This document shows, piece after piece, positions 6,327 through 30,141 of a stretch of 47,681 bases of DNA. Within the stretch, counting starts at the first letter, position 1. Each line of letters opens with the position of its first letter. The stretch covers positions 1-47,681 of the forward strand of contig JACOWJ010000027.1 in the NCBI GenBank assembly GCA_016176845.1. Reading direction: 5' to 3'. The translations under genes were made by a program, and so were the position numbers. The notes under the pieces were generated by a model. The model was not told the DNA's origin, searched no databases, and saw nothing but the letters and a program-made list of their open reading frames with translations. This stretch comes from Nitrospinota bacterium (GTDB taxonomy: Bacteria > 2-12-FULL-45-22 > JACOWJ01).

Positions 6327-6416
6327 GGCAATCCGCCAACCCATCTTTACGAAACATTAGCCTTATTAGCGATAATGTCTACTTTCCCATTCGCCGAAGG
6401 CGGAGGAGGGACGCGC

Positions 6417-7661: not shown

Positions 7662-7674
7662 GGGAGGGCAGACC

Positions 7675-8742: not shown

Positions 8743-8843
8743 TCTACGATTTTCCTTTTATTTCTTCGTCTTCGGATTGGGGCCGTGTTATAATGCCCTC
8801 CGGTTTTCAGTGCGACCACGTTGTGACAATGGGGATTTAATCG

Positions 8844-8935
8844 CATAGGAATTTCCATTTTTGAGGGGCCAGGGGCTAAGTGTTAGCAAAAATTCTTCTT
8901 CACTAGCCCCTAATCCCTAATCCCTAACTTGAAGG
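8844..8935. repeat. heptamer-period hairpin element, CCCTAAT type
   Basis: The marker CATAGGAATTTCCATTTTTG leads into 7-bp units (AGGGGCC, AGGGGCT), a loop AAAAATTCTTCTTCAC identical to that at 4985-5000, and returning units (TAGCCCC, TAATCCC, TAATCCC, TAACTTG). The spacer 8743-9059 contains only this element and the next one. Confidence 0.75.
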
Positions 8936-9036
8936 CATAGGAATTTCCTTTTTAGACAGGATTTACGGGAAAGTTTTAAGTTTCAGGTTTTAAGTGTTAA
9001 GCAAGAAACCTAAAACTTAAAACTTAAAACTTATCT
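8936..9036. repeat. heptamer-period hairpin element, TTTTAAG type
   Basis: The marker CATAGGAATTTCCTTTTTAG is followed by ACAGGATTTACGGGAAAG. Then come 7-bp units (TTTTAAG type), the turn AAGCAAGAAACC, and complementary units (AAACTTA type). A near copy occurs at 12762-12897. It abuts the ribosome-binding site of the next gene. Confidence 0.75.
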
Positions 9037-9059
9037 TGCCAGAGAGGGGGGGAGCCGAG

Positions 9060-10691
9060 TTGAGCAAGATCGTATCAGCGGAAAAGGCGGTGGAGCTGAT
9101 CCGGGATGGGGAGACGGTGGCCATCGGAGGGATCGGGGGCAACGGGGTCACCGAGGAGATCTTCCTTGCCCTGGAGAAGCGCTTCCTGGAAACGGGTCAC
9201 CCTCGGGACCTGATGCTCTTTACCCCCGGGGGACCGGGGGATGGTCGGGGCAAAGGGCTCGACCATATGGCCCACCCCGGTTTCCTGAAGGGAGTGATCA
9301 GCACCTACGTCGGCCCTTTGGCCCCCAAACTGGCCGGGATGATCGAGCGAGAGGAGCTGGAGGGATATATCCTCCCCCTGGGTCCCCTGACCCAGCTCTA
9401 CCGGGAGATCGCCTCGGGCCGGCCGGGGCTGGTGACTCACGTGGGGCTCCACACCTTTGTGGACCCGCGGGTGGAGGGTCCGCCTCAGAACGCCATCTCC
9501 CAGCGGGAGCTGGTGGAGGTGGTCCAGCTGGGCGGGCGGGAGTGGCTCTTCTATAAGGCCTTTCCCATCCATGTGGCCATCATCCGGGGGACCACCGCCG
9601 ACGAGCAGGGCAACATCTCCCTGGAGAAAGAGATCGGCCTGTTCGACATGTTCCAGGCGGCCCAGGCCGCCCGATGCTCCGGAGGCCGGGTGATCGCCCA
9701 GGTCGAGCGGGTTACTACGGCCAAGAGCCTGCGGCCCAAGGATGTCCGCATCCCGGGGGTGCTGGTGGATGCGGTGGTGGTGGCCCGGCCCGAGAACCAC
9801 ATGCAGACCCTCAAGGTCCAGTACAACCCCGCATACAGCGGAGAGATCCGCGTCCCATCGCAGATGCTGAGCTCCCTGGTGGTCGATTATGGTCGAATGG
9901 GCCACATCAGCCGCTCACAGAAGCGGGAGTTCACCCAGAGCCGGGCCGATACCCGCCGGGTCATCGCCCGCCGGGCCGTGTTAGAGCTCTCTCCCGATGG
10001 CGTGGCCAACGTGGGCGTGGGGGCCCCGGAGCTGGTGGCCGATATCGTGATGACCGAGGGAATCGGCGATCGGATCAGCTTTACCGTGGAGCATGGGCCC
10101 ATCGGAGGGATCCCGGCCTATGGGTTGAACTTTGGGGCGGCCCTGAACCCCGACATGCTGGTGGAGATGCCCTCGCTCTTGGATTTCTACGATGGCGGAG
10201 GGATTGATGTGGCCTTCTTAGGGCTGATCGAGGCCGACAGATTGGGCAACGTCAACGCCAGCCGGTCCGGAGAGAGCCGCACGGCGGGTGGCTTCATCGA
10301 TATCTCGCAGAACGCCAAAAAGCTGATCTTCTGCTGCAACTTCACCCGGGGCTCCGAGGTTGAGGTCTCAGGAGGAAAGGCCCAGGTAATCCGCGAGGGA
10401 GGCAGCAAGTTTGTCTCCCAGGTGCGCCAGATCACTTTCAACGGCCCATTCGCCGCCCAGCGGGAGCAGTTCGTCCTGTTTGTGACTGAGCGGGCGGTAT
10501 TCCGCCTCACTCGCGAGGGGCTAATGCTGATCGAGATCGCACCGGGGATCGACCTCCGGCGGGATATCCTGGACCGGATGGAGTTTGCCCCCATTATCGT
10601 CCCTGAGCTCAAGGAGATGCCCCGGGAGATCTTCGATCTATCGGGCCGGATGGGGTTGCGGGAGGCCTTCGAGGGGAAGGGGAGGGGGTAG
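9060..10691 (+). CDS. class I CoA-transferase, alpha-beta fusion (YdiF/propionate CoA-transferase type)
   Basis: A 543-residue cytoplasmic enzyme. TTG 9060 is preferred to the upstream TTG 9036 because GGGGGGAG lies 5 nt before it and 9036 falls at the edge of a repeat. Both halves of a class I CoA-transferase are present in one chain: the alpha part (MSKIVSAEKAVELIRDGETV, then AIGGIGGNG) and the beta part (VGVGAPELVADI). The beta part holds the active-site motif FTVEHGPIGG, with catalytic Glu344 by alignment to the family's E-x-G-P-I-GG. The length matches acetate/propionate/acetoacetate CoA-transferases. With two class III enzymes just upstream, three CoA-transferases lie within 6 kb. It probably activates or recycles short-chain acids. 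The specificity is not readable from the sequence. Confidence 0.9.
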   Translation: MSKIVSAEKAVELIRDGETVAIGGIGGNGVTEEIFLALEKRFLETGHPRDLMLFTPGGPGDGRGKGLDHMAHPGFLKGVISTYVGPLAPKLAGMIEREELEGYILPLGPLTQLYREIASGRPGLVTHVGLHTFVDPRVEGPPQNAISQRELVEVVQLGGREWLFYKAFPIHVAIIRGTTADEQGNISLEKEIGLFDMFQAAQAARCSGGRVIAQVERVTTAKSLRPKDVRIPGVLVDAVVVARPENHMQTLKVQYNPAYSGEIRVPSQMLSSLVVDYGRMGHISRSQKREFTQSRADTRRVIARRAVLELSPDGVANVGVGAPELVADIVMTEGIGDRISFTVEHGPIGGIPAYGLNFGAALNPDMLVEMPSLLDFYDGGGIDVAFLGLIEADRLGNVNASRSGESRTAGGFIDISQNAKKLIFCCNFTRGSEVEVSGGKAQVIREGGSKFVSQVRQITFNGPFAAQREQFVLFVTERAVFRLTREGLMLIEIAPGIDLRRDILDRMEFAPIIVPELKEMPREIFDLSGRMGLREAFEGKGRG

Positions 10692-10778
10692 TCCCTGGTT
10701 TACCCTGTGGCCTCCTGCCGGAGGACAGGATCAGGATGGGAATAAACGCGGCTGGGATAATTTTGCGGTGGAACCTGA

Positions 10779-10914
10779 GTACAACTCCACAGATTTCAGT
10801 GCCCAGTGGGGTGAGATTGCTTCGCTTCGCTCGCAATGACAAGAGCAGGTCATTGCGAGGAGCGCCAGCGACGAAGCAATCTCTAACCGGGCACCCTTTT
10901 ACGTGGAGCTGTAC
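10779..10914. repeat. MITE/REP-like long hairpin (ATTGCTTCGC...GCGAAGCAAT type)
   Basis: An outer arm GTACAACTCCAC (10779-10790) matches the complement of 10903-10914 at 11 of 12 positions. An inner arm 10813-10840 pairs with 10849-10883 through the familiar words GTCATTGCGAGGAGC and GACGAAGCAATCTC. The same inner motif is nested in the repeat at 25732-25817. It lies in a spacer (10692-11063) that has no gene. Confidence 0.75.
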
Positions 10915-10940
10915 TGAGATCATTCGTGTCAATCTAACCC

Positions 10941-10996
10941 CTGGGAACGCCGGCGTCCTCGCCGGCAAAGAGCCGCCAGGATGGCGGCGCTCCCAG
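10941..10996. repeat. cloverleaf-like palindromic repeat
   Basis: The outer stem CTGGGAACGCC/GGCGCTCCCAG (10 of 11 pairs) encloses two smaller hairpins: GCCGGCG-TCCT-CGCCGGC (10949-10966) and AGCCGCC/GGCGGC (about 10970-10988). This three-stem shape is typical of REP-class elements. Confidence 0.65.
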
Positions 10997-11063
10997 GTCT
11001 AAACCTTAAGTTGACACAGATGAACCTGAGATGGCTTTCAACAGCGGAAAGGAGAATCGGTGC

Positions 11064-11963
11064 ATGAGCTATAAATATGTCCTCTGCGAGCGAAAAGGAG
11101 AGATCGCCCGAATCACCTTCAACAAGCCGGAGAAGCTCAACTGTTTCGATTTCCCGGGGCAGGCAGGGATCTTCGATGAATTCCATGAGGCCCTTGACGA
11201 GGTGGAGGCGGATGACGACGTGAAGGTCTTGATCATCCGGGGCTCGGGGCGGGCCTTTTCCTCAGGACACGACCTGAACACCATCTGGCTGGTCTATGGC
11301 GGGGGCAAGGGGGAAAAGAAGGATGAGCGAAAGCCCAGCCAGCGGGCCCGGCTCAACATCGATCGCAAGTGGATGGAGGGGCATCAGCGGATCATGCTCT
11401 TCCCCAAGGTGACCATCGCGCAGGTCCATGGCTATTGCCTGGGAGAAGGGGCCACCATCATGGAGATGTGCGACATCGCCATCGCGGCCGAGGACGCCCA
11501 GGTCGGCCATATCGAGCAGCGGATCGGCTTCGCCGGCAGCGGCCTCAACCTGGTCCCCTTCTTCCACCACGTGGGGGCACGGCGGGCCCGGGAGCTGCTC
11601 CTCACCGGCCGGATCATCAGCGGCAAGGAGGCGGCGGAGATCGGCTGGGTGACCCGGGCGGTCCCCTTCGATCAACTGGAGGCGGAGGTCGAGCGGGTCG
11701 CCCAGGAGATCATGCTGCTGCCCCGCGATGGCATCTCCATCGGCAAGGCCTCCAACCACCTGGTCTACGATATCCTGGGTATGACCCAGGGATGGCTGCA
11801 GGGCTACGTCACCCACACCATGTTCACCAACCTCCGGTTCGAGGAAGGCGAGTATAACCTCCTGAAGGCGAGGCGGGAGAAGGGCACCCGGACCGCCTTC
11901 CACGGCCGGGACGAGCGCTACCTGCAGTATGAGGGAGAAGGGGGAGAAGAAGAGAAGAAGTGA
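11064..11963 (+). CDS. enoyl-CoA hydratase/isomerase (crotonase) family protein
   Basis: A 299-residue protein. ATG 11064 has GGAG 9 nt upstream and gives the usual crotonase N-terminus (YVLCERKGEIARITFNKPEK). Two oxyanion-hole regions are visible: GSGRAFSSGHDL (60-71) and HGYCLGEGA (122-130). Of the two catalytic glutamates of rat crotonase, the Glu144 position is Thr131 here (GEGATIMEMCD). The Glu164 position is kept as Glu151 (VGHIEQRIG). That pattern is usual for isomerases and other crotonase-fold enzymes, not for simple hydratases. There is a basic insertion at about 78-100. The stop overlaps the next start (GTGA), indicating translational coupling. It is probably part of acyl-CoA conversion in this operon; hydratase activity is doubtful. 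Confidence 0.85.
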   Translation: MSYKYVLCERKGEIARITFNKPEKLNCFDFPGQAGIFDEFHEALDEVEADDDVKVLIIRGSGRAFSSGHDLNTIWLVYGGGKGEKKDERKPSQRARLNIDRKWMEGHQRIMLFPKVTIAQVHGYCLGEGATIMEMCDIAIAAEDAQVGHIEQRIGFAGSGLNLVPFFHHVGARRARELLLTGRIISGKEAAEIGWVTRAVPFDQLEAEVERVAQEIMLLPRDGISIGKASNHLVYDILGMTQGWLQGYVTHTMFTNLRFEEGEYNLLKARREKGTRTAFHGRDERYLQYEGEGGEEEKK

Positions 11964-12589
11964 TCTCCCTGTTGGCCTTCGATTCTCATTCCGGCCTCCG
12001 GATCGAGACCCCCTCCTCGACCCTGATCTTTGATCCGATCGGGATCAAGGTCGAGGAGGTCTCTCGGGCCGATGCCATCGTGGTGACCCACGAGCATCCC
12101 GATCACCTGGATGTCCGGAAGGTGGTGGAACTACAGCGGAAAACGGGGGCCCGGGTGATCACCACGCCTTTTGTGGCGGGCCTGCTCAAGGATATCCCGG
12201 CCGATCGAGTACGCCCCCTGAGGATCGGGGAGACGCTTGCCTGGGACGGGATCCGGCTTCGTGCCGAGCGCTCAAAGCACCCGGGCCGCCAGCCCCTGGC
12301 CTTTCTCCTCACCACCGAGGAGGGCATCCGACTCTATCATCCCAGCGACAGCGACCCCTTTCCCGAGATGGAACGGCTGGCCGAGGAGGGCGGGACCGAT
12401 ATCGCCCTGTATTTAGGGGGATCCCTGGGAAAAGGGCTCCAAATCGCCCAGCTGGTTCGACCGCGGGTCTTCCTTTTCCGCTACCTGGAGCCTTCCAGGG
12501 TCACGCAGGGGTTAAAAGAGGCCTCTGAGGAGACCCAAGGAGAGATCCTCTGGCCGCTGCAGGCCTATCGCTTTCCCACAGCCCGTTGA
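11960..12589 (+). CDS. metallo-beta-lactamase-fold hydrolase (UlaG-like)
   Basis: A 209-residue protein starting at GTG 11960, overlapping the crotonase stop by 4 nt. The metal-binding motif HEHPDH is at residues 44-49 (THEHPDHLD). Further candidate ligands are the His in RSKHPGRQ and the Asp pair in YHPSDSDP. The short chain and sequence pattern resemble the UlaG/beta-lactamase superfamily-3 group, which includes lactonases and phosphodiesterases and is not limited to antibiotic hydrolysis. There is no signal peptide, so it is cytoplasmic and is not expected to be a resistance enzyme. The translational coupling suggests it acts with the crotonase, perhaps on a lactone or a thioester, but the substrate is unknown. 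Confidence 0.75.
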   Translation: MISLLAFDSHSGLRIETPSSTLIFDPIGIKVEEVSRADAIVVTHEHPDHLDVRKVVELQRKTGARVITTPFVAGLLKDIPADRVRPLRIGETLAWDGIRLRAERSKHPGRQPLAFLLTTEEGIRLYHPSDSDPFPEMERLAEEGGTDIALYLGGSLGKGLQIAQLVRPRVFLFRYLEPSRVTQGLKEASEETQGEILWPLQAYRFPTAR

Positions 12590-13616: not shown

Positions 13617-14468
13617 ATGAAGGCGATCGACGTCCATGCCCACTTTGCCACGGCCGAAGGGGTGGCCAGCATGTCGAAGTTCAACGATGCCATGGAGAAG
13701 TATTATGGCTATAAGACCAAGATCCTCACCGAGGAGGAGATGGCCAAAGAATTCATCGAGGCCGAGGTGAAGGGAATCCTGATCGGGATCGACGCCGAGA
13801 GCAACCTGGGCATCCCGGGGACCTCCCATGATTACGTGGCGAAGGTGGTCAAGGATTACCCGGATGCCTTCATCGGGGCCTTTGCCTGCGTGGATCCCTG
13901 GAAGGGGGAGATGGCCATCCAGGAGTTGGAGCGCTGCATCAAGGAGTTGGGATTCCTGGGGTTGAAATTCCAGTCGATCGCCCAGGCCTTCTTTCCCGAC
14001 GACCGCCGCTTTTACCCCCTCTACGAGAAGTGCGTCGAGCTCAAGGTCCCCGTCCAGTTCCATATGGGCACAACCGGCCTGGGGGCAGGGCTGCCGGGCG
14101 GGATGGGGGCCCACATCAAGTATACCCGGCCCATTCCTCACATCGACGACGTGGCGGCCGACTTCCCCGACCTCACGATTATCGCCTGTCACTACGCGTG
14201 GCCCTGGCAGGACGAGATGATCGCGGTGCTGCTGCACAAGGCCAACGTTTACAATGAGCTCTCGGGCTGGTCTCCCAAGTATTTCTCTCCGGCCTTTAAG
14301 AAGGAGGTCAACGGGCGGCTGCAGGACAAGTTCATGTTCGGTTCCGATTATCCCGTGCTCTCCCATAAGCGTCTCTTCCAGGATTGGGACTCGGAGAATT
14401 TCAAGCCGGAAGTGCTGGAGAAGATCTTTTATAAGAACGCCCAGCGCATCCTGAACCTGAAAGTCTGA
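13617..14468 (+). CDS. amidohydrolase_2 family protein (ACMSD-like), copy 1
   Basis: A 283-residue TIM-barrel metalloprotein; ATG 13617 follows GAGGAGGAAAG. Metal-site residues are His7 and His9 (DVHAHF), His149 (VQFHMG), His192 (CHYAWPW) and Asp244 (FGSDYP). This pattern is shared by ACMSD, gamma-resorcylate decarboxylase and related hydrolases or hydratases. Family members are decarboxylases or C-C and C-O hydrolases acting on carboxylated or ring-derived acids. There is no signal peptide. A very similar gene (19160-20017) lies beyond the RND pump. The first copy is flanked by TetR and the efflux adaptor, which suggests co-regulation by a common effector. The substrate is unknown. Confidence 0.85.
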   Translation: MKAIDVHAHFATAEGVASMSKFNDAMEKYYGYKTKILTEEEMAKEFIEAEVKGILIGIDAESNLGIPGTSHDYVAKVVKDYPDAFIGAFACVDPWKGEMAIQELERCIKELGFLGLKFQSIAQAFFPDDRRFYPLYEKCVELKVPVQFHMGTTGLGAGLPGGMGAHIKYTRPIPHIDDVAADFPDLTIIACHYAWPWQDEMIAVLLHKANVYNELSGWSPKYFSPAFKKEVNGRLQDKFMFGSDYPVLSHKRLFQDWDSENFKPEVLEKIFYKNAQRILNLKV

Positions 14469-19159: not shown

Positions 19160-20017
19160 ATGGGATTTAGAGCGATCGATGTCCACGCCCACCTGAGCAC
19201 CAAACCCTGGAATGTCACCTTCTCCAAACTGAACGCAGCCATGGAGAAATACTATGGCTTCAAGACCAAGGAGCTGACCGAGAAGGAGATGGCCGAAGAG
19301 TTCATTGAGGCCGGGGTGAAGGGGATCCTGATCGGGATGGATGCCGAGTCCAACCTGGGCACGCCCCGGGTCCCGAATGATTATGTGGCCAAGCTGGCTA
19401 AGGATTACCCCGATGCCTTCATCGGGAGCTTCGTCTGCGTGGATCCCTGGAAGGGGGAGATGGCCATCCAGGAGATCGACCATTGCATCCGGAACCTGGG
19501 GATGATAGGGGTCAAGTTCCAGGGGATCGCCCAGGCCTTCTTCCCCAGCGACCGCCGCTTCTATCCCATCTACGAGAAATGCCTGGAGCTCAAGGTCCCC
19601 GTCCAGTTTCACATGGGAACGACCGGCCTGGGGGCCGGGATGCCGGGCGGGATGCGCTCTCACCTGAAATACACCCAACCGATTCCTTATCTGGACGACC
19701 TGGCGGCCGATTTTCCCGACCTCACCATCATCGGCTGCCACTACGCCTGGCCCTGGCAGAACGAGATGATCGCGGTGCTGCTCCACAAGGCCAATGTCTA
19801 CAACGAGCTCTCCGGCTGGTCTCCTAAATATTTCACGCCGGAGTTCAAGAAGGAGGTCAACGGGCGGCTGCAAGACAAGTTCATGTTCGGCTCGGACTAT
19901 CCCGTGCTCTCCCATGCGCGGCTGATCGCCGACTGGGAGCAGTCGGGCTTCAAGCCCGAGGTATTAGAGAAGGTCTTCTACAAGAACGCCCAGCGGATCC
20001 TGAACCTGAAGGTTTGA
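19160..20017 (+). CDS. amidohydrolase_2 family protein (ACMSD-like), copy 2
   Basis: A 285-residue paralogue of 13617-14468, very similar along its full length (by eye at least three quarters identical). ATG 19160 follows AAGGGAGGAA by 4 nt. The metal site is conserved: His9 and His11 (DVHAHL), the FHMG and CHYAWPW histidines, and the Asp in FGSDYP. Differences cluster near the N-terminus (residues 12-22) and at about 68-72 (GTPRVPND versus GIPGTSHD), and may alter the substrate pocket. The stop is followed at once by a composite repeat and then the glycyl radical enzyme start 218 bp later, so it may be transcribed with that gene. Whether the two copies form a hetero-oligomer or have distinct substrates cannot be told. 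Confidence 0.85.
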   Translation: MGFRAIDVHAHLSTKPWNVTFSKLNAAMEKYYGFKTKELTEKEMAEEFIEAGVKGILIGMDAESNLGTPRVPNDYVAKLAKDYPDAFIGSFVCVDPWKGEMAIQEIDHCIRNLGMIGVKFQGIAQAFFPSDRRFYPIYEKCLELKVPVQFHMGTTGLGAGMPGGMRSHLKYTQPIPYLDDLAADFPDLTIIGCHYAWPWQNEMIAVLLHKANVYNELSGWSPKYFTPEFKKEVNGRLQDKFMFGSDYPVLSHARLIADWEQSGFKPEVLEKVFYKNAQRILNLKV

Positions 20018-20018
20018 T

Positions 20019-20235: not shown

Positions 20236-22779
20236 ATGCCAAGTCCGAGGAAAGAAGACCTGCAGGCCCTGGCCAGTCCGGGAAGCGTGAGCTTTGCCGA
20301 CCGGGTAGCCCAATCTAAACCCTACGAGTGGGGCTTCGGCTCCACGCCCCGCGTGGCCCAATTGCGCGAAGGGCTTTTCTCCAAGGCGGCCGTGATCAAA
20401 GACTGGGCCAGCCTGGGGGAGGGGATCACCACCTTCCGCAAGCAAGTCAAGATCGACATGGACCGGGCCCGCCTTGCCACCCGCTCTTATCAGGAGACCG
20501 AGGGAGAGCCCTGGCCCCTCCGCCGGGCCAAGGCCCTCTACCGGATCTGCGACGAGCTTCCCCTCTACATCAAGCCCCTGGACCTGATCGTCGGCAGCCC
20601 CAACAGCGCGCCCGACGAGGTCCGCTGGTACCCGGAGACGGACGTGAGCTACATGCCCCACGCCATCACCGAGGGGGGCTACCGGCACATGATCTCCCAG
20701 GAGGAGAAGCGGGAGCTGTTGGAGGAGACCTACCCCTATTGGAAGGACAAGACCCTGGCGGCGGCGACGGAGCGGGTCCTGCCCGATGACGTGAAGGACT
20801 TCTGCGATATCGGCCCCCACTCCACGGCCGGCTGTGCCAATGGCTGGCGCTCCCCGCGCGGCCTGGCCAACCCCAACTGGGAGGATCTCCTGAGCGAGGG
20901 GATCGCCGCCCGCATCCGGCGGGTGGAGAACAACTACGCCCGGCACAAGAGTTCGATGCCCGAGACGATGAGCCCCGCCGAGTACATCAAGCGGTGCCAC
21001 AACTATGAGGCCATGATCCTCGCCGGCAAGGCCATGCTGCGTTTCGCCGAGAGGTATGCCGAGCTGGCCTCCCGGTTGGCCGCCTCCGAGAAGGACGAAG
21101 GGCGCCGCCGGGAGCTGGAGGAGATCGCCGAGGTCTGCCGCTGGGTGCCCGCCAATCCCCCCCGGACCTTCCACGAGGCCCTGCAGGGCTACTGGCTGAT
21201 CGAGGTGGTCTTCCGCTACCTGGAGGCCCCCAACAATGGCAGCGGCGGGCGCATCGACCAGATCTGGTACCCTTATTACAAGAAGGATATCGAGGAGGGA
21301 CGGATCACCCGGGCGCAGGCCCTGGAGCTGATCGAGTGCTGGATGCTGAACGTCGAGGAGACCGGCATGCACTGCGAGGCCCCCGACTTCTTCACCATCG
21401 CTGCGGGCGGCTCGGTCTTTTATACCGCCAACGTTGCCGGCACCGTCGATGGGAAGGATGCCTCCAACGACCTGACCTGCCTGATCCTGGAGGCTCTCTC
21501 CGACGTCCGGACCTGCCAGCCTCCGGTGGCCTTCCGCTATGCCGCGCAGGTCTCGCCGGCGGTGATGGAGCGGGCGATAGACCTGTGCCGCACGGGAACG
21601 GGCCACCCGGCCTTCTTTAACGAAGACCTCTTCCAGAAATATGCCCGGATGCAGGGCATCTCCACCGAGGATTCGGAGAAGTTCAGCGTGGCGGGATGCC
21701 TGGCCCCCACGATCATCGGCAAGTCCATGAACGCCGGGGCTTACGCCGTCATGGGGCTTTATAACTCCATGAAATCCCTGGAGCTGGCCCTCTGGCAGGG
21801 GGTGGACAAGGTGAGCGGCCTGAAGGTGGGGGCGGACACGCCCGATCCCAAGAGCTTCAAGGGCGCCGATGACCTCCTCAGGGCGGTTTCCACCCAGCAG
21901 GAGCACATGGTGCGCCGATATGCCAAGTCCAACGATATCGGCTTTACCGTTATGATCGAGCGTTTCCCCATGCCGGCGGCCTCTTTCGTCCTGGACGACT
22001 GCCCGGACATGGGGATCGACGTCAACGAGATGAGCCGCCGTTACAACAGCTGGCCCTGCATGGCGGGGGCGGAGTTCAGCGCCATTGCCGACTCCCTGGC
22101 GGCGGTGCAGCGGCTGATCTACGACGAGAAGCGGGTCACTTGGGATGAGCTGCTGGAGGCCCTGGAGGCCAACTGGCAGGGACGCGAGGAGTTGCGCCAG
22201 CTCTTCCTCCGGGCGCCCAAGTATGGCAACGACGATGATTACGCCGATCAGTGGGCCATCAAGGCCCACCAGGGGGTCCTGGGGGCCATGAGCCGGGTTA
22301 AGGATGCCTGGGGAAAGCCCTGGTTCTATGATGGCAGCACGGCCATCTCCCCCATGGCCCTCCCGCGGGGCGTCCATGCCACTCCCGATGGGCGGCGGGC
22401 CGGAGAGCCTGGGTCCGACTCCAGCCTGGCCCCGGTGGCCGGCCGGGATACCAAGGGGCCTACGGCGGTCTTGAACTCGATCTCCAAGATCCCCTTCATG
22501 ATGAACGACCTGCTCAATCAGCGGTTCATGCCACAATTCCTGGAAGGGGAGTACAAGCCGCTCTTCGCCGACTACCTGCAGCAATGGTACGAGATGGGAA
22601 ACTCTTATCACGTCCAGTTCAACGTGATGAACAACGCGGTCTTGCAGGACGCCCAGCTCCATCCCGATCGTCACGCGAACCTGATGGTCCGGGTGGCAGG
22701 CTACAGCGCTTATTTTGTGGATCTGCCCAAGGAGGTCCAGGATCACATCCTCTCGCGGACGGAGCAGGCGTTCGCCTAA
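20236..22779 (+). CDS. glycyl radical enzyme of the pyruvate formate-lyase/CutC-like superfamily, function unknown
   Basis: An 847-residue radical enzyme. ATG 20236 follows AGGGAGGG; the frame stays open upstream to 20059 only because it reads through a repeat, so the longer form is rejected. The PFL-like N-terminal domain is recognisable (RAKALYRICDELPLYIKPLD, GRIDQIWYPYYKKDIEEG). The thiyl cysteine is Cys488 in VAGCLAP and the glycyl radical is Gly822 in RVAGYSAYF, 334 residues apart, 25 from the C-terminus. Size and spacing resemble choline TMA-lyase (CutC). However, the residue two after Cys, Glu in the GCVEP loop of dehydratases and lyases such as CutC and glycerol dehydratase, is Ala490. 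Benzyl- and alkylsuccinate synthases have CMSPG there, so it matches neither group. It needs activation by the radical SAM activase at 23510. It is cytoplasmic and oxygen-sensitive. Confidence 0.92.
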   Translation: MPSPRKEDLQALASPGSVSFADRVAQSKPYEWGFGSTPRVAQLREGLFSKAAVIKDWASLGEGITTFRKQVKIDMDRARLATRSYQETEGEPWPLRRAKALYRICDELPLYIKPLDLIVGSPNSAPDEVRWYPETDVSYMPHAITEGGYRHMISQEEKRELLEETYPYWKDKTLAAATERVLPDDVKDFCDIGPHSTAGCANGWRSPRGLANPNWEDLLSEGIAARIRRVENNYARHKSSMPETMSPAEYIKRCHNYEAMILAGKAMLRFAERYAELASRLAASEKDEGRRRELEEIAEVCRWVPANPPRTFHEALQGYWLIEVVFRYLEAPNNGSGGRIDQIWYPYYKKDIEEGRITRAQALELIECWMLNVEETGMHCEAPDFFTIAAGGSVFYTANVAGTVDGKDASNDLTCLILEALSDVRTCQPPVAFRYAAQVSPAVMERAIDLCRTGTGHPAFFNEDLFQKYARMQGISTEDSEKFSVAGCLAPTIIGKSMNAGAYAVMGLYNSMKSLELALWQGVDKVSGLKVGADTPDPKSFKGADDLLRAVSTQQEHMVRRYAKSNDIGFTVMIERFPMPAASFVLDDCPDMGIDVNEMSRRYNSWPCMAGAEFSAIADSLAAVQRLIYDEKRVTWDELLEALEANWQGREELRQLFLRAPKYGNDDDYADQWAIKAHQGVLGAMSRVKDAWGKPWFYDGSTAISPMALPRGVHATPDGRRAGEPGSDSSLAPVAGRDTKGPTAVLNSISKIPFMMNDLLNQRFMPQFLEGEYKPLFADYLQQWYEMGNSYHVQFNVMNNAVLQDAQLHPDRHANLMVRVAGYSAYFVDLPKEVQDHILSRTEQAFA

Positions 22780-22782
22780 AGC

Positions 22783-22852
22783 AGGGGTTAGGGATTAGGG
22801 GCCAGGATGAGCAGGAATGGCCTTTCTCTTGCTAACCCTGGCCCCTAAACCA
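22783..22852. repeat. heptamer-period hairpin between glycyl radical enzyme and Uma2 gene
   Basis: Units AGGGGTTA, GGGATTA and GGGGCCA are followed by GGATGAGCAGG, a turn, and the return TTGCTAACCCTGGCCCCTAA. AGGGGCCAGG and CCTGGCCCCT pair perfectly. It occupies nearly the whole 87-bp gap and could also act as a transcript-end hairpin. Confidence 0.7.
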
Positions 22853-22866
22853 GAAAGGCAGGAAAC

Positions 22867-23469
22867 ATGGGCACAGGGGTAATCACCGAGACCCAACCCC
22901 TCATTTTGCACCTCGGACCGACCTTGCGGAAGATGAGTGACCACGAATTTTTTGAGTTTTGCCAGTTGAACCGAGATTTGCGCATCGAACGTACCCGCGA
23001 GGGGGATTTAATCATTATGCCGCCAACTGGAGGGAAGACTGGAAGACGGAATTTTACCCTGACCGGACTTTTCACCGCCTGGGTCGAGGCAGATGGAAGG
23101 GGGATTGGCTTTGATTCCTCAACAGGATTTACACTGCCAAACGGTGCGAAGCGATCGCCAGATCTGGCGTGGATCGAACGCTCGCGGTGGGTAGCCCTGA
23201 CGGAAGAAGAAAAAGAGGGATTTCCTCCCCTGTGTCCGGACTTTGTCGTCGAACTTCGCTCACGGTCCGATGCGTTGGAGATGTTGCAGGAGAAGATGAC
23301 AGAGTACATCGCCAACGGTGCCCAGCTCGGCTGGCTTATCGACCCACAGGAGAAGAAAGTGTACATCTATCACCCATCGGCCGACGTCTGTTGCCTGGAG
23401 AACCCCGAAACCATTTCAGACGATCCGGTTCTCCCTGGGTTTGTGCTGGACTTACGACGAATCTGGTAA
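22867..23469 (+). CDS. Uma2-family (DUF820) putative restriction-fold endonuclease
   Basis: A 200-residue protein starting at ATG 22867 behind AGGCAGGAAAC. The PD-(D/E)XK-like core is visible: a Glu-rich N-terminal strand (LRIERTREGDLIIMPPTGG), then SPDLAWIERSRW with the conserved PD, then the PDFVVELRS strand and a later charged helix (ALEMLQEKMTEYIANGAQLG). The family is found in many genomes, often in several copies near mobile regions, and its physiological role is unsettled. Here it separates a glycyl radical enzyme from its activase, two genes that are normally adjacent. A heptamer hairpin lies directly upstream. An insertion into the operon is therefore likely. Confidence 0.8.
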   Translation: MGTGVITETQPLILHLGPTLRKMSDHEFFEFCQLNRDLRIERTREGDLIIMPPTGGKTGRRNFTLTGLFTAWVEADGRGIGFDSSTGFTLPNGAKRSPDLAWIERSRWVALTEEEKEGFPPLCPDFVVELRSRSDALEMLQEKMTEYIANGAQLGWLIDPQEKKVYIYHPSADVCCLENPETISDDPVLPGFVLDLRRIW

Positions 23470-23509
23470 TGAACAGAGCACTATTTCTTTTTTACGGCTC
23501 CTTACTGTT

Positions 23510-24454
23510 ATGGGCTACGTCTTCAACATCCAACGCTTCTCCATCCACGATGGGCCGGGCATCCGGACGACCGTTTTCCTGAAAGGGTGTCCGCTGCGGT
23601 GCAGCTGGTGTGCCAACCCGGAATCGATCCGGCCGTTGCCGGAGATCATCACCCGGGATCTGAAGTGCATCGGCTGTGGGCGATGTCTCCAGGCCTGCTT
23701 CCAGGGGGCCATCGAGCTCCAGGAAGAGGGCAGGCGGACTATGCAGTGGGAGCAGTGCGATCAGTGCCTGCGGTGCGCCGAGGCCTGCCCCTCCGGGGCG
23801 ATCGATGTGATGGGAAGACAGACGAGTGTCGCGGAGGTGATAGAGGAGGTCTTGCGGGATCGTCGCTTCTATCAGCGGAACGGGGGTGGCCTGACCGTAT
23901 CGGGCGGAGAGCCTCTATTCCAGTGGGAGTTCGCCCGCGACCTGCTGGCCGAGGCCAGGCGGCAGGGGTTGCACACGACGCTGGATACCAGCGGTTACGC
24001 CGACTGGGATACACTAGAGAGGGTCCTGGAGCACGCCGACCTGGTGCTTTACGACCTCAAGCAGATGGACGACGAGCGGCACCGGCAGGGGACCGGGGTC
24101 TCCAACCGGCGGATCCTGGAGAACCTGGAGAAGGTGGCCAGGCGGTACCATGCGGCCGAGGGTAGTATCTCTTCTAGTGGGCAGCGAAGCCGGATCTGGA
24201 TCCGTTGCCCCGTCATTCCCGGCTTCAACGACTCGGAGGAGCACTTAGAGGCGCTGGCGCAGTTTGTCCGGCCATTGGGGGAGGCGGTGGAGCGGGTCTC
24301 CCTTCTTCCTTATCACCGGTTCGGGGAGCTCAAATATTCCGCGGGAGGGAAGGCTTACCCTTACGAGGGGCAGCCGATGCTTCCCGACGAAAGGATCGAG
24401 GAACTGAAGGCGCTCCTCGAGTCGTATCGGTTGACCGTCACTTTGAAGAAATGA
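23510..24454 (+). CDS. glycyl-radical enzyme activating protein (radical SAM, ferredoxin-type insert)
   Basis: A 314-residue [4Fe-4S] enzyme that cleaves S-adenosylmethionine and removes a hydrogen from Gly822 of the partner enzyme. ATG 23510 gives the usual beginning (MGYVFNIQRFSIHDGPGIRT). The radical SAM motif is Cys27-x3-Cys31-x2-Cys34 (GCPLRCSWC). Two extra four-Cys clusters follow, Cys53/56/59/63 (CIGCGRCLQAC) and Cys83/86/89/93 (CDQCLRCAEAC), as in activases of CutC, HpdB, BssA and glycerol dehydratase but not PFL activase. The SAM-binding TVSGGEP motif follows. No good ribosome-binding site is seen, and the start lies 41 nt after the Uma2 stop, so expression may depend on the upstream transcript. 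The partner is presumably the enzyme at 20236. Confidence 0.92.
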   Translation: MGYVFNIQRFSIHDGPGIRTTVFLKGCPLRCSWCANPESIRPLPEIITRDLKCIGCGRCLQACFQGAIELQEEGRRTMQWEQCDQCLRCAEACPSGAIDVMGRQTSVAEVIEEVLRDRRFYQRNGGGLTVSGGEPLFQWEFARDLLAEARRQGLHTTLDTSGYADWDTLERVLEHADLVLYDLKQMDDERHRQGTGVSNRRILENLEKVARRYHAAEGSISSSGQRSRIWIRCPVIPGFNDSEEHLEALAQFVRPLGEAVERVSLLPYHRFGELKYSAGGKAYPYEGQPMLPDERIEELKALLESYRLTVTLKK

Positions 24455-24492: not shown

Positions 24493-24522
24493 TTGTCGGG
24501 CTCTTGGACTGAGTGGTATATA
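24493..24522 (+). promoter_or_regulatory. possible promoter of the radical SAM module
   Basis: TTGTCG (24493-24498), an 18-nt spacer, and TATATA (24517-24522), in the 124-bp gap before the first SPASM gene. Each hexamer has four of six consensus bases, so the call is weak. Confidence 0.3.
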
Positions 24523-24578
24523 GGATGGAATCATCCGAAGAGGTGAAATGCCTATTAGCCAAGAACAAGGGGGAAGCC

Positions 24579-25703
24579 ATGGAGCGCGTATTGAAAAGGG
24601 GTTCCCGGGGAGCGATCCTCTCCCCGGAGTCTATCCTGAGCTCCACGCGCGAGAAGTTCCAGCAGGTCCTGAAGGAGGCCAGGCCCCTCTTCGGGTGGTT
24701 CAGCCTGACCGAATCCTGTGACCTGCGGTGCCGATACTGCTTTGCGGGCTCCAGTCGGCCCCTGGAAGAGGAGTTGACCACCCAGGAGGTCCTCCAGGTG
24801 GTGGACAACATCGCCGAAGCCGGCACGGAGGCGATCGTCTTCGGCGGGGGAGAGCCCACCCTGCGGAAGGATTTGGTCGAGATCGTGGCCCATGCCTCCC
24901 GGCGTATGGCGGTGGCCATCAACACCAACGGGCAGCTGATGGAGCCGGAATCGGTGAGGAGATTGGCCCGGGCCGGACTCTCGCAGCTGAAGGTCAGCGT
25001 GGACGGGCTTCAAGATCTCCATGATTGGAACCGGGGGGCGGGCACCTTCGAGAAGGCCTTGAATGCCCTGAAAGAGGCCCGGGCTGCGGGTATCCCCCGG
25101 GTGATCCTGATTGCGACCATCTCCCAGCTCAATTACCCACAGCTCGCGGAGATGGTCCGGCTGGCCATGGAGCAGGGGGTAGATTTTTCCGCTGTCGAGT
25201 TCCTCCCTCTGGGGAGAGGGACCTCGGGCCAGGACTGGGGCCTGACCCCGGAGCAGACCCGGGACATGCAGCGTTACCTGACGGAGGCCCGCCGGCTCCA
25301 TGGGTCGAAGCGGATCATCTTCGAGAACCGCTATATCATCGCAGAGGACGAGCACGCCCAGCGGATCTGTGCCGATCCACAAAGACCCACGGGGGTCTTC
25401 GATTTCTGCGTGGGCTGCCCCAACGGGATCTATCAGTACTGCATCAACGCGGAGGGAAAGGTCACGGCCGGAGACATCACCACCCTGGAGATCGGCGACC
25501 TGAAGAGAGAGCGACTGGGCGAGATCTGGCGCAACTCCGAGGTACTCCATCTCCTGAGAGACCGCGAGCAGCTCAAGGGCAAGTGCGGCGAGTGCGAATA
25601 CCGGTATATCTGCGGGGGATGTCGCAGAAGGGCTTACACCTACACGGGAGACCTGATGGCGGAGGACCCGGGTTGCTGGCGCTCCCCCCTTCGGGGGGAT
25701 TGA
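24579..25703 (+). CDS. radical SAM/SPASM protein, AhbC/AhbD/NirJ-like, copy 1
   Basis: A 374-residue iron-sulfur enzyme; ATG 24579 is preferred because AAGGGGGAA lies just upstream. The radical SAM cluster is Cys47/51/54 (ESCDLRCRYC) and the SAM loop is FGGGEPTLR. The pattern SVDG...HDWNRGAG and the C-terminal block GKCGECEYRYICGGC...AEDPGCW are the signature of haem-related SPASM proteins (AhbC, AhbD, NirJ). Auxiliary-cluster cysteines visible are 277, 280 and 288, and 336, 339, 345, 348 and 366. Known relatives modify tetrapyrroles (haem d1 and siroheme-derived haem), while other SPASM proteins modify peptides. The neighbours are a second copy and chelatase-like AAA and VWA genes, which favours a cofactor role (inference). 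The stop codon lies inside a repeat. Confidence 0.85.
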   Translation: MERVLKRGSRGAILSPESILSSTREKFQQVLKEARPLFGWFSLTESCDLRCRYCFAGSSRPLEEELTTQEVLQVVDNIAEAGTEAIVFGGGEPTLRKDLVEIVAHASRRMAVAINTNGQLMEPESVRRLARAGLSQLKVSVDGLQDLHDWNRGAGTFEKALNALKEARAAGIPRVILIATISQLNYPQLAEMVRLAMEQGVDFSAVEFLPLGRGTSGQDWGLTPEQTRDMQRYLTEARRLHGSKRIIFENRYIIAEDEHAQRICADPQRPTGVFDFCVGCPNGIYQYCINAEGKVTAGDITTLEIGDLKRERLGEIWRNSEVLHLLRDREQLKGKCGECEYRYICGGCRRRAYTYTGDLMAEDPGCWRSPLRGD

Positions 25704-25871: not shown

Positions 25872-25876
25872 TAACT

Positions 25877-25976
25877 CCCTTGGGGGAATTAGAAAAAGCC
25901 AATGCAAAATGCCGGTAGGGAATTTTCAATTTTCAATTTTCAATTTCCAATTTCCAATGCTCGCCGCGCAGCGAGC
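25877..25976. repeat. composite heptamer element overlapping a coding start
   Basis: It opens with CCCTTGGGGGAATT (25877-25890). The array AATTTTC x3, AATTTCC x2 at 25921-25955 follows, and the end palindrome is GCTCGCCGCGCAGCGAGC (25959-25976). It lies directly behind the previous element with a 5-nt gap. The ATG of the next gene is inside it. Confidence 0.75.
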
Positions 25977-27068
25977 CTGGCATCTGCGCGAGATTTTCTG
26001 AACGCCACCCGGCAAAAGTTCCTCCAGCTGATCCAGGAGCGGCGATCCCTCTTCGCCACCTTCCAGGTCACAGCGGGCTGCAACCTGCGCTGTAAAAACT
26101 GCGGGGGCGACTTCACGGAGCCCCGGCCGGATGAGCTGGCCACCGAGGAGGTGTACGCCCTGATTCGCAACCTCCAGCGGGCCGGGACCACCTATCTCTC
26201 TCTGGGAGGTGGGGAGCCGACCATGCGGGATGACCTGCCACAAATCGTCGCCTACGCCTCTTCCCTCATGGGCGTAGGAATGGTCAGCAACGGCGTCCTC
26301 CTGGACGAGGAGTATGCCGAACTGCTGAAACGCGCCGGGCTCTCCGTGGTGGACATCAGCCTGGATGGAGCCTCAGCGGAGACCCATGATCCCCAACGTG
26401 GAGCAGGCAGCTTCGAGCGGGGGTTGCGGGCCCTCCAGAATTGTCAGCGGGCCGGCATCCCCGTGGTGGATCTTCAGACCACCATCTCCCAATTGAACTA
26501 TCCCGAGCTGCCCCGGATCATCCGGCTTGCCCTGGATCTGGGGGTCAACATCGTCGTCAACCAGTTCATCCCGTGCGGGCGGGCCCAGGGGAGAGACGAC
26601 CTGCTGTTGACCCGGGAGCAGCGAAAGGAGCTGCAACGGTATCTGATCGAGCAAGAACGGCTCTTCGGCAAGCAGCGGATCAAGTTCGATCGGTACTATA
26701 TCGTCTCCGAGGACGAGAAGGGCCAGAGGATCTGGGGGGACCCGGCCAAAAGCGGCTTCAACGTGGGCGATCCCTTCGGGATTTACGGATATGCCATCGC
26801 GGCCAACGGCAAGGTCACCCCGACGACCCCGGAGATCGAGATCGGAGACCTGAGGCGGGAAGAGCTCAGCGAGGTCTGGACCCATTCGGACGTGCTGGCC
26901 ACGCTGCGGAACCGGGAGCGGCTGAAGGGCAAATGTGGCCGGTGCGAATACAAGTTCATTTGCGGAGGGGACCGGAGGCGCACCCATGCCCTCACGGGGG
27001 ACCCGATGGGCGAGGACCCCCTCTGCTGGTATGAACCTTTTCTAGAGACTATGAGCTATGAGCCATGA
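25902..27068 (+). CDS. radical SAM/SPASM protein, AhbC/AhbD/NirJ-like, copy 2, repeat-derived N-terminus
   Basis: A 388-residue paralogue of the gene before. The radical SAM motif is Cys60/64/67 (AGCNLRCKNC), and SLGGGEPTMR, SLDGASAETHDPQRGAGS and the C-terminal GKCGRCEYKFICGGD...GEDPLCWY follow. The equivalent of Cys277/280/288 of copy 1 is missing (NVGDPFGIYGYAIA), so one auxiliary cluster is probably lost. Residues 1 to about 27 are encoded by a heptamer repeat; homology to copy 1 begins only at FLNATRQKF. No ATG, GTG or TTG lies in frame between 25902 and the conserved part, so either the repeat start is used or the native 5' end was lost. GGGGGAA lies 14 nt before the ATG, a poor spacing. 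The C-terminus overlaps the next gene by 11 nt. Confidence 0.8.
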   Translation: MQNAGREFSIFNFQFPISNARRAASLASARDFLNATRQKFLQLIQERRSLFATFQVTAGCNLRCKNCGGDFTEPRPDELATEEVYALIRNLQRAGTTYLSLGGGEPTMRDDLPQIVAYASSLMGVGMVSNGVLLDEEYAELLKRAGLSVVDISLDGASAETHDPQRGAGSFERGLRALQNCQRAGIPVVDLQTTISQLNYPELPRIIRLALDLGVNIVVNQFIPCGRAQGRDDLLLTREQRKELQRYLIEQERLFGKQRIKFDRYYIVSEDEKGQRIWGDPAKSGFNVGDPFGIYGYAIAANGKVTPTTPEIEIGDLRREELSEVWTHSDVLATLRNRERLKGKCGRCEYKFICGGDRRRTHALTGDPMGEDPLCWYEPFLETMSYEP

Positions 27069-28599
27069 GCTATTAGACCTCCTGGATGGGTACCAGCCCA
27101 TGCCCGTAGCCTACCAATTGAGGGGATCCATCCTCCAAAAGATCCGCCGGGGAGAGGACCCCTTGCCCGAGATTCAAGGCCGGGAAGAGACCAAACGGGA
27201 TGTCCTGCGCGCCTTGCTCTCCGGCCACAACATCTACCTGGTGTCGGAGGAGGGGACGGGAAAGACCCGACTGGCGAAGTCCCTGACCCGGCTCCTGCCT
27301 CCCATCCTTAAGGTCCGGGGTTGCCCGTATAACGACGATCCCAAGTGGCCCTCTCATTGGCTCTGTCCGCGTTGTCGGGAAAGCCGGAACCCCGCCGAAG
27401 AATATGGGATCGAAATGGTTCCGGGAGAGAAACGCTTCTCCCGCATCCAGGGCAACGATTACACCGATGAATCGAAGCTATTGGGCCTGAAGGACATCCA
27501 GGCGATCGTGAAGGGCAGAAGCCCCACGGATATTCACGCATTTGCGGCGACCGGGGCCTTTCGGGCCAACCGGGGCATCCTTTTCATCGATGAGCTGCCG
27601 GCCATCCGGACCAAGGTCCAGGTCCTGCTCCACCCGATCTCGGAGGAGAAGAAGGCCATCTTGGAGGAATACAACTGGGAGTACCCCCTGGACAACGTCC
27701 TGATTGCTACGGGAAATCCCGAGGGTTTTTCCCATATCAATGAAGTCCCCCGCCCTCTGCTGGACCGATTGGAGTTGATCTACATGCCCCTGCCCGGCCC
27801 GGAGGTGGAGCGGGAGATTATGCTGGGGGAGCGATTCCGGATCAAGGGGGAGTTTTTCGAGGCGGATGGGAAACCTCAGGCCCTCTGGCCTTCCATCCGC
27901 CTGGAAGAGCTGGAAAGGGATGTGGTCCTGCCCTGGTGGGTCCTTTACCTGCTCACCGGGGCGATTCACTATAGTCGCCGATGCAGCCTGTTGGATAGAA
28001 GGCCGAGCATTCGGGCCAGCTACCGGGCTCTAGACCACGCCTATGCCGGCGCGGAGCTGGAAGGCCGCAAGGTGGCCTCGCTCCAGGATGCCTGGGTGGG
28101 TCTGAGGTTGGCCCTGCGGGGAAGGATCGAATTGCGCTCCGACCTGATCGATTTCGAAAACCCCCGGGAAAACTTTACTCGGAGCGATGAGCTCAGCCAG
28201 GATCTGCTATGGAATGCCCTGGAGGGCTCCAAAGAGCTCTTCCTAGAGGGGTGTCATCGAGAAAGACTGGCGGAGGATATTGGCTCCCTGGCCTCTGAGG
28301 GGGTCGGGAACCTCTCCCATCGGCTGCCCAGGTACGGGGAGCTCCACCGGGCGATCGAGCGGATCAAAAGGGTAGCCGGAGAAAAGGTCAACCGCGGGCT
28401 CCTCAATCAGCGCGAAAGGGAGCTCCTGGATACTCCGGCTCAAGTTGACATCGAGACCCTGGATCAGTATCATTTTTCCGCATTGGAAACCCTCTGCAAT
28501 GCGGCCCTGTGCCATCAATGGATCTCGGAGGAGGCGATCCCCTGGATCCCGTTCATCCCGCGGTTGGTCTCCTGGTCTCGGCCCCTTCGGGGAATTTAA
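27058..28599 (+). CDS. AAA+ ATPase of the magnesium-chelatase ChlI/MoxR type
   Basis: A 513-residue ATPase. Walker A is SEEGTGKT (63-70), Walker B is LFIDE with Asp178/Glu179, and a sensor-like ATGNPEG follows. A cysteine knuckle between them (Cys89, Cys103 and Cys106 in GCPYN...LCPRC) resembles the zinc-binding insert of some ChlI-like ATPases. The C-terminal half is helical and of unknown type. The ATG at 27058 overlaps the radical SAM stop by 11 nt, which implies translational coupling. With a VWA protein 447 bp downstream, the pair looks like ChlI/ChlD, CobS/CobT, NorQ/NorD or CoxD/CoxE systems. These use ATP to insert metals into tetrapyrroles or to remodel metalloenzymes. The client is unknown. 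Confidence 0.85.
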   Translation: MSHELLDLLDGYQPMPVAYQLRGSILQKIRRGEDPLPEIQGREETKRDVLRALLSGHNIYLVSEEGTGKTRLAKSLTRLLPPILKVRGCPYNDDPKWPSHWLCPRCRESRNPAEEYGIEMVPGEKRFSRIQGNDYTDESKLLGLKDIQAIVKGRSPTDIHAFAATGAFRANRGILFIDELPAIRTKVQVLLHPISEEKKAILEEYNWEYPLDNVLIATGNPEGFSHINEVPRPLLDRLELIYMPLPGPEVEREIMLGERFRIKGEFFEADGKPQALWPSIRLEELERDVVLPWWVLYLLTGAIHYSRRCSLLDRRPSIRASYRALDHAYAGAELEGRKVASLQDAWVGLRLALRGRIELRSDLIDFENPRENFTRSDELSQDLLWNALEGSKELFLEGCHRERLAEDIGSLASEGVGNLSHRLPRYGELHRAIERIKRVAGEKVNRGLLNQRERELLDTPAQVDIETLDQYHFSALETLCNAALCHQWISEEAIPWIPFIPRLVSWSRPLRGI

Positions 28600-28951: not shown

Positions 28952-29046
28952 CAAGGACCCAAATGGAAGAGTGTAAGCGCTGTATTCGTATACCGGCAAT
29001 GCCCCCAGGGTGAGGGAGCGAGGTCCCATCCCGGGAGGATGGGATC

Positions 29047-30141
29047 TTGTCGGAAGTGGCCCATGCCGAAGAGCGGTCGGTGGTGGATTGGCTTCGCCGG
29101 CTGAGGCGTGACTTGGCGGATAGCATCCTGGGGAAGAGGGTGGCAGAGCAGGTGCGGGAGAGGCTCCAGGAGGAGGTGACACGTGGGGAAGGGAAAGAGG
29201 CGGGCGACTGGGATCGTTCCATCCTGGATAAGATCCTGCCCCGGGATATCGAAGGCTGCTTAGAGGAGTACGTTCAGCAAGGCGACATGAAGATCGAGGC
29301 CGGCCGGATCCGGATCACACCTCGAGGGGGTCGCAGGCTGGCCAGCCTGGCCAAAAAGAAGCTGGAGAAGCTGTCCCGAGAGCGGCCAGGCCTTCATCAG
29401 ACCCCAAAGTTGGGCTGCGGTTGGGACCTGGACCGTTCTTCGAGGAGGTATGAGCTGGGGGATGATTACCGGTTCCTCGATATCCAGAAGACCCTTCTCA
29501 ATTCCCTGGAAAGGAAGGCCCCGGCCGGCGGGCCGGCAGCAACCCTCCTGGATCTGGAGGAAGAGGACCTCGAGATTAACGAGAAGACGGAAGAGACCCG
29601 GATGTGCCTCGCCCTCCTGGTCGATGAAAGCGCCAGCATGGGAGAAGAAAAACGGGACGCTGCCATCGATACCTGCCTTGCGTTGGCCCGGTTGAAGGAG
29701 CCGCAGGACCTGTTGAAGGTCTTTATTTTTTCCTCGCAGACCCAAGAGATCCCCTGTTGGGAAATCCTGAACGTCAGTGCTCCCAAAGAGACTACCGACA
29801 TCAAACTCGCCTTACAGACCGCCAGGAGGGCCCTCAAAAGCGAAAGGGGGAGAAAACAGATCTACCTGATCACCGATGCGGAGCCCAATACCGAGAACCA
29901 TCAATACATCGGCTTCGAGAAAGCCGTTCCTGGAGTCATGAAAGAAGTATTCCGTTACAGACAAGAAGGCCTTACTTTGAACATCGTGATGTTGGATGAT
30001 AACCCTCTTCTAAAGGATTTCGCCTCGCGGTTGGCGCAATTTAACACGGGAAGGATTTACTTTGCCTCGGCTTCCGACCTGGGCAGGGTCGTGATCCAGG
30101 ACTACCTGACCTCCCGGAGAAGGGCCCGCCGGGGTAATTGA
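29047..30141 (+). CDS. VWA-domain protein, chelatase D-subunit-like
   Basis: A 364-residue protein. TTG 29047 is used because GGGAGGA lies 7 nt before it. Residues 1 to about 170 are helical and charged, ending with an acidic stretch (LLDLEEEDLEI). The VWA domain follows with the metal-ion-dependent adhesion site Asp193-x-Ser195-x-Ser197 (DESASMG). A Thr then lies in KETTDIK and an Asp in LITDAEPN, so the site looks complete. The family acts as partner of MoxR/ChlI-type AAA+ ATPases and binds the client protein or metal substrate. The gene pairs with the ATPase upstream, separated only by a repeat. No signal peptide is seen. Confidence 0.85.
   Translation: MSEVAHAEERSVVDWLRRLRRDLADSILGKRVAEQVRERLQEEVTRGEGKEAGDWDRSILDKILPRDIEGCLEEYVQQGDMKIEAGRIRITPRGGRRLASLAKKKLEKLSRERPGLHQTPKLGCGWDLDRSSRRYELGDDYRFLDIQKTLLNSLERKAPAGGPAATLLDLEEEDLEINEKTEETRMCLALLVDESASMGEEKRDAAIDTCLALARLKEPQDLLKVFIFSSQTQEIPCWEILNVSAPKETTDIKLALQTARRALKSERGRKQIYLITDAEPNTENHQYIGFEKAVPGVMKEVFRYRQEGLTLNIVMLDDNPLLKDFASRLAQFNTGRIYFASASDLGRVVIQDYLTSRRRARRGN

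Follow-up and report, generated by a model that had tools for sequence, protein, structure and literature searches.

A glycyl radical enzyme without the eliminase glutamate and the fumarate-site arginine, a candidate for a new subfamily

A 47,681-nucleotide stretch of a subsurface Nitrospinota bacterium (contig JACOWJ010000027.1; hereafter the window) encodes a glycyl radical enzyme (GRE) that, judged from sequence, belongs to a separate clade, which carries neither the active-site acid of the GRE eliminases nor the fumarate-site arginine of the X-succinate synthases. GREs are oxygen-sensitive radical enzymes, and the X-succinate synthases among them open toluene and alkanes to anaerobic microbial attack. 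We propose, as a reading evenly poised between right and wrong, that the window GRE represents a new subfamily, so far uncharacterised, in which activation of a C-H bond is followed by base-free radical C-C chemistry. Since neither the eliminase acid nor the fumarate arginine is present, the reaction may be new, a possibility raised in an earlier reading of the window (the original prediction).

The Cys loop of the window GRE is G487-C488-L489-A490-P491 (GCLAP), in which alanine occupies the second position after the catalytic cysteine (Cys+2), and the glycyl loop R819-V820-A821-G822 lies within RVAGYSAYF; both Gly822 and Cys488 are intact. On re-reading of the window, the open reading frame, these residues and loops and a nearby activase gene were all as described in the original prediction. 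Pfam analysis revealed a PFL-like domain (PF02901, 503 bits) and a Gly_radical domain (PF01228, 82 bits), and the AlphaFold2 model (predicted local distance difference test, pLDDT, 84; predicted template modelling score, pTM, 0.89) matches the fold of PFL2-type GREs with Z-scores of 36-41. The two domains, the RVxGY loop, the catalytic cysteine, the partner activase and the fold assign the protein to the GRE superfamily, and the enzyme is probably active. A 907-residue version starting at 20059, suggested by the open reading frame tool, was rejected as an over-extension: the orthologue described below begins as at 20236, and the extra part crosses an intergenic repeat. Against the NCBIfam models, the enzyme scored 501 bits with PFL2-3 (cut-off 678), 447 with HypD (1100), 444 with HpsG (1000), 427 with CutC (1050), 358 with the IAD model NF033718 (1100), 280 with the HPAD model NF033715 (1150) and 77 with the pyruvate formate-lyase model TIGR01255 (994), and the eliminase equivalog models altogether gave 382-447 bits at cut-offs of 1000-1100. 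This similarity is best read as family level only. No solved GRE exceeds 32% identity to the enzyme; an identity of 40-50% is said to lie under the threshold that separates most GRE functions (PMC11528403).

The genomes compared include one other from the phylum of the window, an order-mate, and the genomes of the relatives are partial assemblies, as is that of the window (1.53 Mb, 68% complete). The order-mate encodes an orthologue (locus L002) with 79% identity across 847 residues, whose loop is GCMAP. Four further relatives share about 43-47% identity with the window GRE, with the loops GCVAM in Desulfobacteraceae CSMAG_3012 (G060) and in G371, GCVCP in G207 and GCVTN in G707; the G371 sequences are fragments on separate contigs, which stem from no fewer than two copies and apparently from three. 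Because the orthologue comes from another assembly, Ala490 is no sequencing error, which the four relatives likewise rule out. Across the six assemblies, the Cys+2 residue is small and non-acidic (A/A/A/A/C/T), so that the glutamate which the original prediction named as a refutation was not encountered; a small residue conserved in this way is not due to chance. The exact GC-L-A-P loop anticipated for the clade is retained only in part: the closest pair has GC(L/M)AP, whereas the clade overall keeps only a small residue. An N-terminal segment of about 65 residues, SFxxR...KPYEWGxGSTxR, is also common to the clade and conserved wherever the sequence is complete. The clade was detected in three of 389 genomes from the class to which G060 belongs, and a broad sample of 386 genomes gave one carrier, not counting the window's genome and that of the order-mate; the clade is therefore rare. 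No further members were found in the phylum of G707, and no report naming this clade or the two neighbouring groups described below was found in open-access literature text.

Phylogenetic analysis was performed with 49 sequences and 776 columns, using a quick IQ-TREE search with support from the Shimodaira-Hasegawa-like approximate likelihood ratio test (SH-aLRT); PAD and AAD sequences were not among the rows, and the NmsA and AssA labels rest on similarity and loop rather than on assays. The six sequences form a small-residue clade with a support of 100 and no characterised member. The separate clade forecast by the original prediction thus appeared with full support, and its view that no characterised class fits holds for the classes sampled, as the enzyme did not fall inside any of them. 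The X-succinate synthases (Bss, Nms and Ass, 13 rows) form another clade with a support of 100, apart from the small-residue clade. Both are part of a larger acid-less group (32 rows, support of 100), together with two groups named after their CMRW and CVY loops. All 17 rows outside this group have a glutamate at Cys+2, the X-succinate synthase rows have Ser, Ala or Val, and the acid/non-acid state requires a single change on the tree. The groups stand after removal of the 13 columns around the Cys loop. Lack of the glutamate is thus not unique to the enzyme, as it is also absent from all sampled X-succinate synthases and from the two large uncharacterised groups.

The CMRW and CVY proteins are the next nearest to the clade (34-42% identity), with CMRW, CMKW, CMWW or CVY loops in which Cys+2 is again not acidic; most of the CVY proteins have a glutamate at Cys+4. 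GREs of the CMRW type (Arg, Lys or Trp at Cys+2) were observed at L023, L024, L025, L066, L074, L076 and L077, three of them in genome G001, and those of the CVY type at L026, L067-L073 and L075, mostly in Desulfobacterota; no characterised member was seen in either set. Among the X-succinate synthases, BssA-type genes are present in G110 and G142 (62% identical to each other; that of G142 scores 1226 bits to TutD), to which weaker matches of the BssD model TIGR04003 had led, this model having no match above its cut-off in 147 genomes. NmsA- and AssA-type relatives were found by further search. Compared to the usual CMSP loop, one X-succinate synthase relative (in G060) has CMAP and three have CIVP, and this natural CMAP indicates that alanine at Cys+2 is tolerated in X-succinate synthases. 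Alkylsuccinate-synthase-like proteins with CMAP or CIVP were seen at L156:5954-8446, L157:3145-5643 and L166:6230-8737.

The pocket of the clade differs from that of CutC: Tyr208 is replaced by Asn or Lys, Asp216 by Leu, Ile or Asn, Glu491 by Ala, Cys or Thr and Thr502 mostly by small residues, and Phe395 is kept. Residues that are invariant and specific to the clade include N123, E128, R130, E323, T387, H457 and E463. As the glutamate is truly absent, elimination of the CutC or diol-dehydratase type is unlikely, in line with the original prediction. We propose that the activase would generate a radical at Gly822, which would be passed on to Cys488, and that the Cys488 thiyl radical would then take a hydrogen from a C-H bond of the substrate. 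The substrate radical would react without proton transfer, most likely by adding to an unsaturated acceptor with formation of a C-C bond, in the manner of benzylsuccinate synthase (BSS). Since the arginine that anchors fumarate is missing, this acceptor would not be fumarate, or would be fumarate bound differently; the nearby coenzyme A (CoA)-transferases may then activate the acid that is formed. Among the conceivable reactions, C-C addition (fumarate included) would come first, at a little below an even chance; C-C cleavage or decarboxylation is a tentative candidate, something else altogether would be unlikely, and elimination with another base improbable.

Downstream of the activase lies a pair of genes for a MoxR/Mg-chelatase-type AAA+ ATPase and a von Willebrand factor A (VWA) protein. 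Close AAA+ orthologues occur only in G000, G060 and G371 among the 15 genomes searched, and VWA orthologues (42-50% identity) hold the same position in L003, L130 and L131. The gene order is GRE, activase, a 174-residue protein, AAA+ and VWA in G060, and two G371 copies have the same order with a second activase directly after the first. Toluene degraders share the genes bssDCABEF, in which bssE encodes an AAA+ and bssF a VWA protein in all those sequenced, with uncertain function (PMC7285207). An AAA_5/CbbQ_C protein also adjoins the BssA-type enzyme at L080; the window AAA+ had no BLAST match to it at an E-value of 1e-4, and we therefore regard the two pairs as of the same kind and do not claim orthology. 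By analogy with what is presumed for BssE and BssF, the pair is probably an ATP-driven chaperone or reactivase. A more specific proposal, that these enzymes constitute a new GRE class of deep-branching subsurface bacteria and Desulfobacterota, coupling C-H activation to C-C bond formation with a non-fumarate acceptor and possessing its own AAA+/VWA reactivase, is put forward tentatively and with more doubt than belief.

Several observations weigh against our proposal of base-free C-C chemistry. Arg508 of BSS, or Arg492 of (1-methylalkyl)succinate synthase (MASS), holds one carboxylate of fumarate (PMC12358834; PMC4848970); this arginine occurs in each of the 13 X-succinate synthases, whereas the six clade members all have other residues in its place (Y/Y/L/M/M/A), and Trp613, Asn615 and Gln707 are likewise not kept. 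The alignment near the arginine column is less sure because of an insertion in that region, and the CMRW and most of the CVY proteins have an arginine two columns before it. The sister relationship of the clade and the X-succinate synthases has weak support (88 in a first tree, 84 in the present one and 78 without the loop columns), and the approximately unbiased test did not reject an alternative topology in which the clade pairs with the CMRW and CVY groups (p-AU 0.35). The fold comparison gave a tie: VIA-align ranked MASS with fumarate at Z 41.0, N-methyl-hydroxyproline dehydratase at 40.8, HypD at 40.7 and glycerol dehydratase and CutC at 40.5, and with differences within 1 Z unit the ranking was dropped as an arbiter between MASS and the eliminases. 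No convincing Cys-rich open reading frame for a small subunit (BssB/C-like) was found on the coding strand between 19.9 and 31.3 kb of the window. The AAA+/VWA pair is linked to the GRE in just three of the six clade genomes, and a distant pair (28% identical) adjoins a GRE with a CTE-type (isethionate-lyase-like) loop in G449 (L101:4017-7287), so that such pairs are not limited to X-succinate synthases.

That the enzyme is a true X-succinate synthase, in which a hydrocarbon or carboxylate adds to fumarate and other residues take over the role of the BSS and MASS arginine, is rather unlikely. X-succinate synthases are the nearest characterised clade in all three trees, an AAA+/VWA pair is present as in bssEF, a natural CMAP loop is found in one X-succinate synthase relative, two family III CoA-transferases and a crotonase lie within the window, and genes for a class I fumarase and a malate/lactate dehydrogenase are found some way off one G371 copy. 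However, the equivalent of Arg508/Arg492 is missing, no genes for the small iron-sulfur (Fe-S) subunits were found near the GRE, and the clade stands outside the fully supported X-succinate synthase clade. Moreover, an identity of the family III pair as benzylsuccinate CoA-transferases was rejected, the one member searched (6375-7661) being nearer to hydroxymethylglutaryl- and formyl-CoA transferases, and CoA-transferase genes were not seen at the other clade loci. By placement and by arginine, the clade would thus not belong to the X-succinate synthases, but it may work like one.

A role as a radical decarboxylase, or as another C-C lyase with a carboxylic acid as substrate, is also among the less probable explanations. 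Phenylacetate decarboxylase (PAD) has a glutamine at the position equivalent to the Cys+2 glutamate (PMC9248008), which shows that this glutamate is dispensable for decarboxylation by a GRE, and its lack alone therefore does not exclude such a reaction; the family of the adjoining amidohydrolases includes non-oxidative decarboxylases, and an acyl-CoA ligase gene lies directly upstream of the G371 copy mentioned above. On the other hand, the scores with the IAD and HPAD models are far under their cut-offs, Glu502 is essential in IAD, and the window residue is apolar rather than glutamine. An eliminase whose general base has moved, for example to the clade-specific His457, Glu463 or Glu323, would be improbable: none of the three varies within the clade, they are seldom found in the other rows, and the C-N lyase HplG has the same GHPAFxN segment around His457, whereas all eliminase-type rows sampled retain the Cys+2 glutamate and the clade lies within the acid-less group. 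A decayed or inactive paralogue, as the insertion of a Uma2 gene between the GRE and the activase might suggest, is very hard to reconcile with the full-length frame, the 79% identical orthologue, the intact glycine and cysteine and the conservation of the activase and the N-terminal segment across the clade.

The features of the window are listed below; the original prediction did not mention the Uma2 gene, the radical SAM/SPASM pair or the AAA+/VWA pair (24513-30141).

Features in the neighbourhood of the GRE gene (positions are those of the window)
Feature	Position	Strand	Evidence or remark
Family III CoA-transferase	5085-6326	+	Profile match
Family III CoA-transferase	6375-7661	+	Profile match
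Family I CoA-transferase	9036-10691	+	Profile match
Crotonase	11031-11963	+	Profile match
Block including the CoA-transferases, an esterase-like protein, the crotonase and a metallo-hydrolase	5085..12589	+	Possible downstream acid/acyl-CoA pathway, putative link to GRE
Amidohydrolase (PF04909), paralogue (79%) of the 19160..20017 gene	13617..14468	+	Pfam
Amidohydrolase (PF04909), directly upstream of GRE	19160..20017	+	Pfam
GRE, PFL2-type, 847 residues	20236..22779	+	Pfam, orthologue start, AlphaFold2 model
Uma2-family putative endonuclease, between GRE and activase	22867..23469	+	PF05685, 149 bits
Radical SAM GRE activase	23510..24454 (start uncertain; open frame begins further upstream)	+	TIGR02494, 359 bits (cut-off 174)
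Radical SAM/SPASM protein 1, AhbD/NirJ-like	24513..25703	+	Profile match, below equivalog cut-offs
Radical SAM/SPASM protein 2	25902..27068	+	Profile match
MoxR/Mg-chelatase-type AAA+ ATPase	27058..28599	+	Orthologues (57-62%) beside clade GREs in two other genomes
VWA protein, partner of the AAA+ ATPase	29047..30141	+	PF13519

Across the clade loci, the activase is conserved, and the AAA+/VWA pair in half of the genomes. The window activase is 68% identical to that of the orthologous locus, where the Uma2 gene is absent and the gap between GRE and activase is 167 bp; the Uma2 gene is an insertion and not part of the GRE system. Radical SAM/SPASM protein 1 adjoins the activase in the orthologous locus too (75% identity). 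Both SPASM proteins (24513-27068) are relatives of AhbD/NirJ under all cut-offs, and could modify a peptide or the GRE. Repeats with a 14-base period (TGCAAAATGAAAAA and its complement) occupy the intergenic stretches 20018-20211, 25701-25964 and 28596-28942, which end near a CTCGCGCAGCGAG-type palindrome and appear to be copies of a single intergenic repeat element, perhaps a mobile one.

The three CoA-transferases, the crotonase and the two amidohydrolases named in the original prediction are all present, but the other loci of the clade have not kept these neighbours. A regulator and an efflux pump separate the GRE from the CoA-transferases and crotonase, which are located 8-15 kb upstream of it and provide only a hint, since the set was not seen near the other clade GREs. 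At L066 (G403), a CMRW-type GRE is directly preceded by a relative (58%) of the amidohydrolase at 19160..20017; an Old-Yellow-type oxidoreductase, two short-chain dehydrogenases and a thiamine pyrophosphate enzyme come next (L066:8018-17589), and the gene set has the look of a cyclic-compound pathway.

Among the rows sampled from the acid-less group, only the X-succinate synthases include characterised GREs, and the three other subgroups are targets in the search for radical C-H activation and C-C bond chemistry. If the more specific proposal of a non-fumarate acceptor is true, the small-residue clade and the CMRW and CVY groups would represent a family of radical enzymes that make C-C bonds and are still largely unexplored. 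The acid-less group also makes it possible to study the origin of fumarate addition from eliminase-type ancestors, a question that is testable because the acid position needs one step on the tree.

Compared to other known systems, the window GRE bears far less resemblance to pyruvate/ketobutyrate formate-lyase (Z 30, 19-20% identity), which also has no acid at Cys+2 but possesses a Cys-Cys pair in place of Gly487-Cys488. The arylacetate decarboxylases (HPAD, IAD, PAD and AAD) are GREs as well, and PAD similarly lacks the glutamate; they differ in the low HPAD and IAD scores and in having Glu or Gln where the window GRE has an apolar residue. With the eliminases (CutC, glycerol and propanediol dehydratases, HypD, HplG, IslA and HpsG), the enzyme shares the fold, the Gly and Cys loops and the TIGR02494-type activase, and its best single phmmer score is to CutC; however, their Cys+2 glutamate is Ala, Cys or Thr in the clade, Tyr208 and Asp216 of CutC are not kept, and they occupy another part of the tree. 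The X-succinate synthases differ in sequence (28-33% identity), in the residue before the cysteine (Leu or Ala instead of Gly), in the fumarate-site arginine and in forming their own fully supported clade, and genes for small Fe-S subunits like theirs were not found near the window GRE. Nevertheless, they resemble the window GRE in the PFL2-type fold, in the acid-less Cys+2 position, in a C-(M/L)-(S/A)-P loop that is followed by a longer insert and in the accompanying AAA+/VWA genes.

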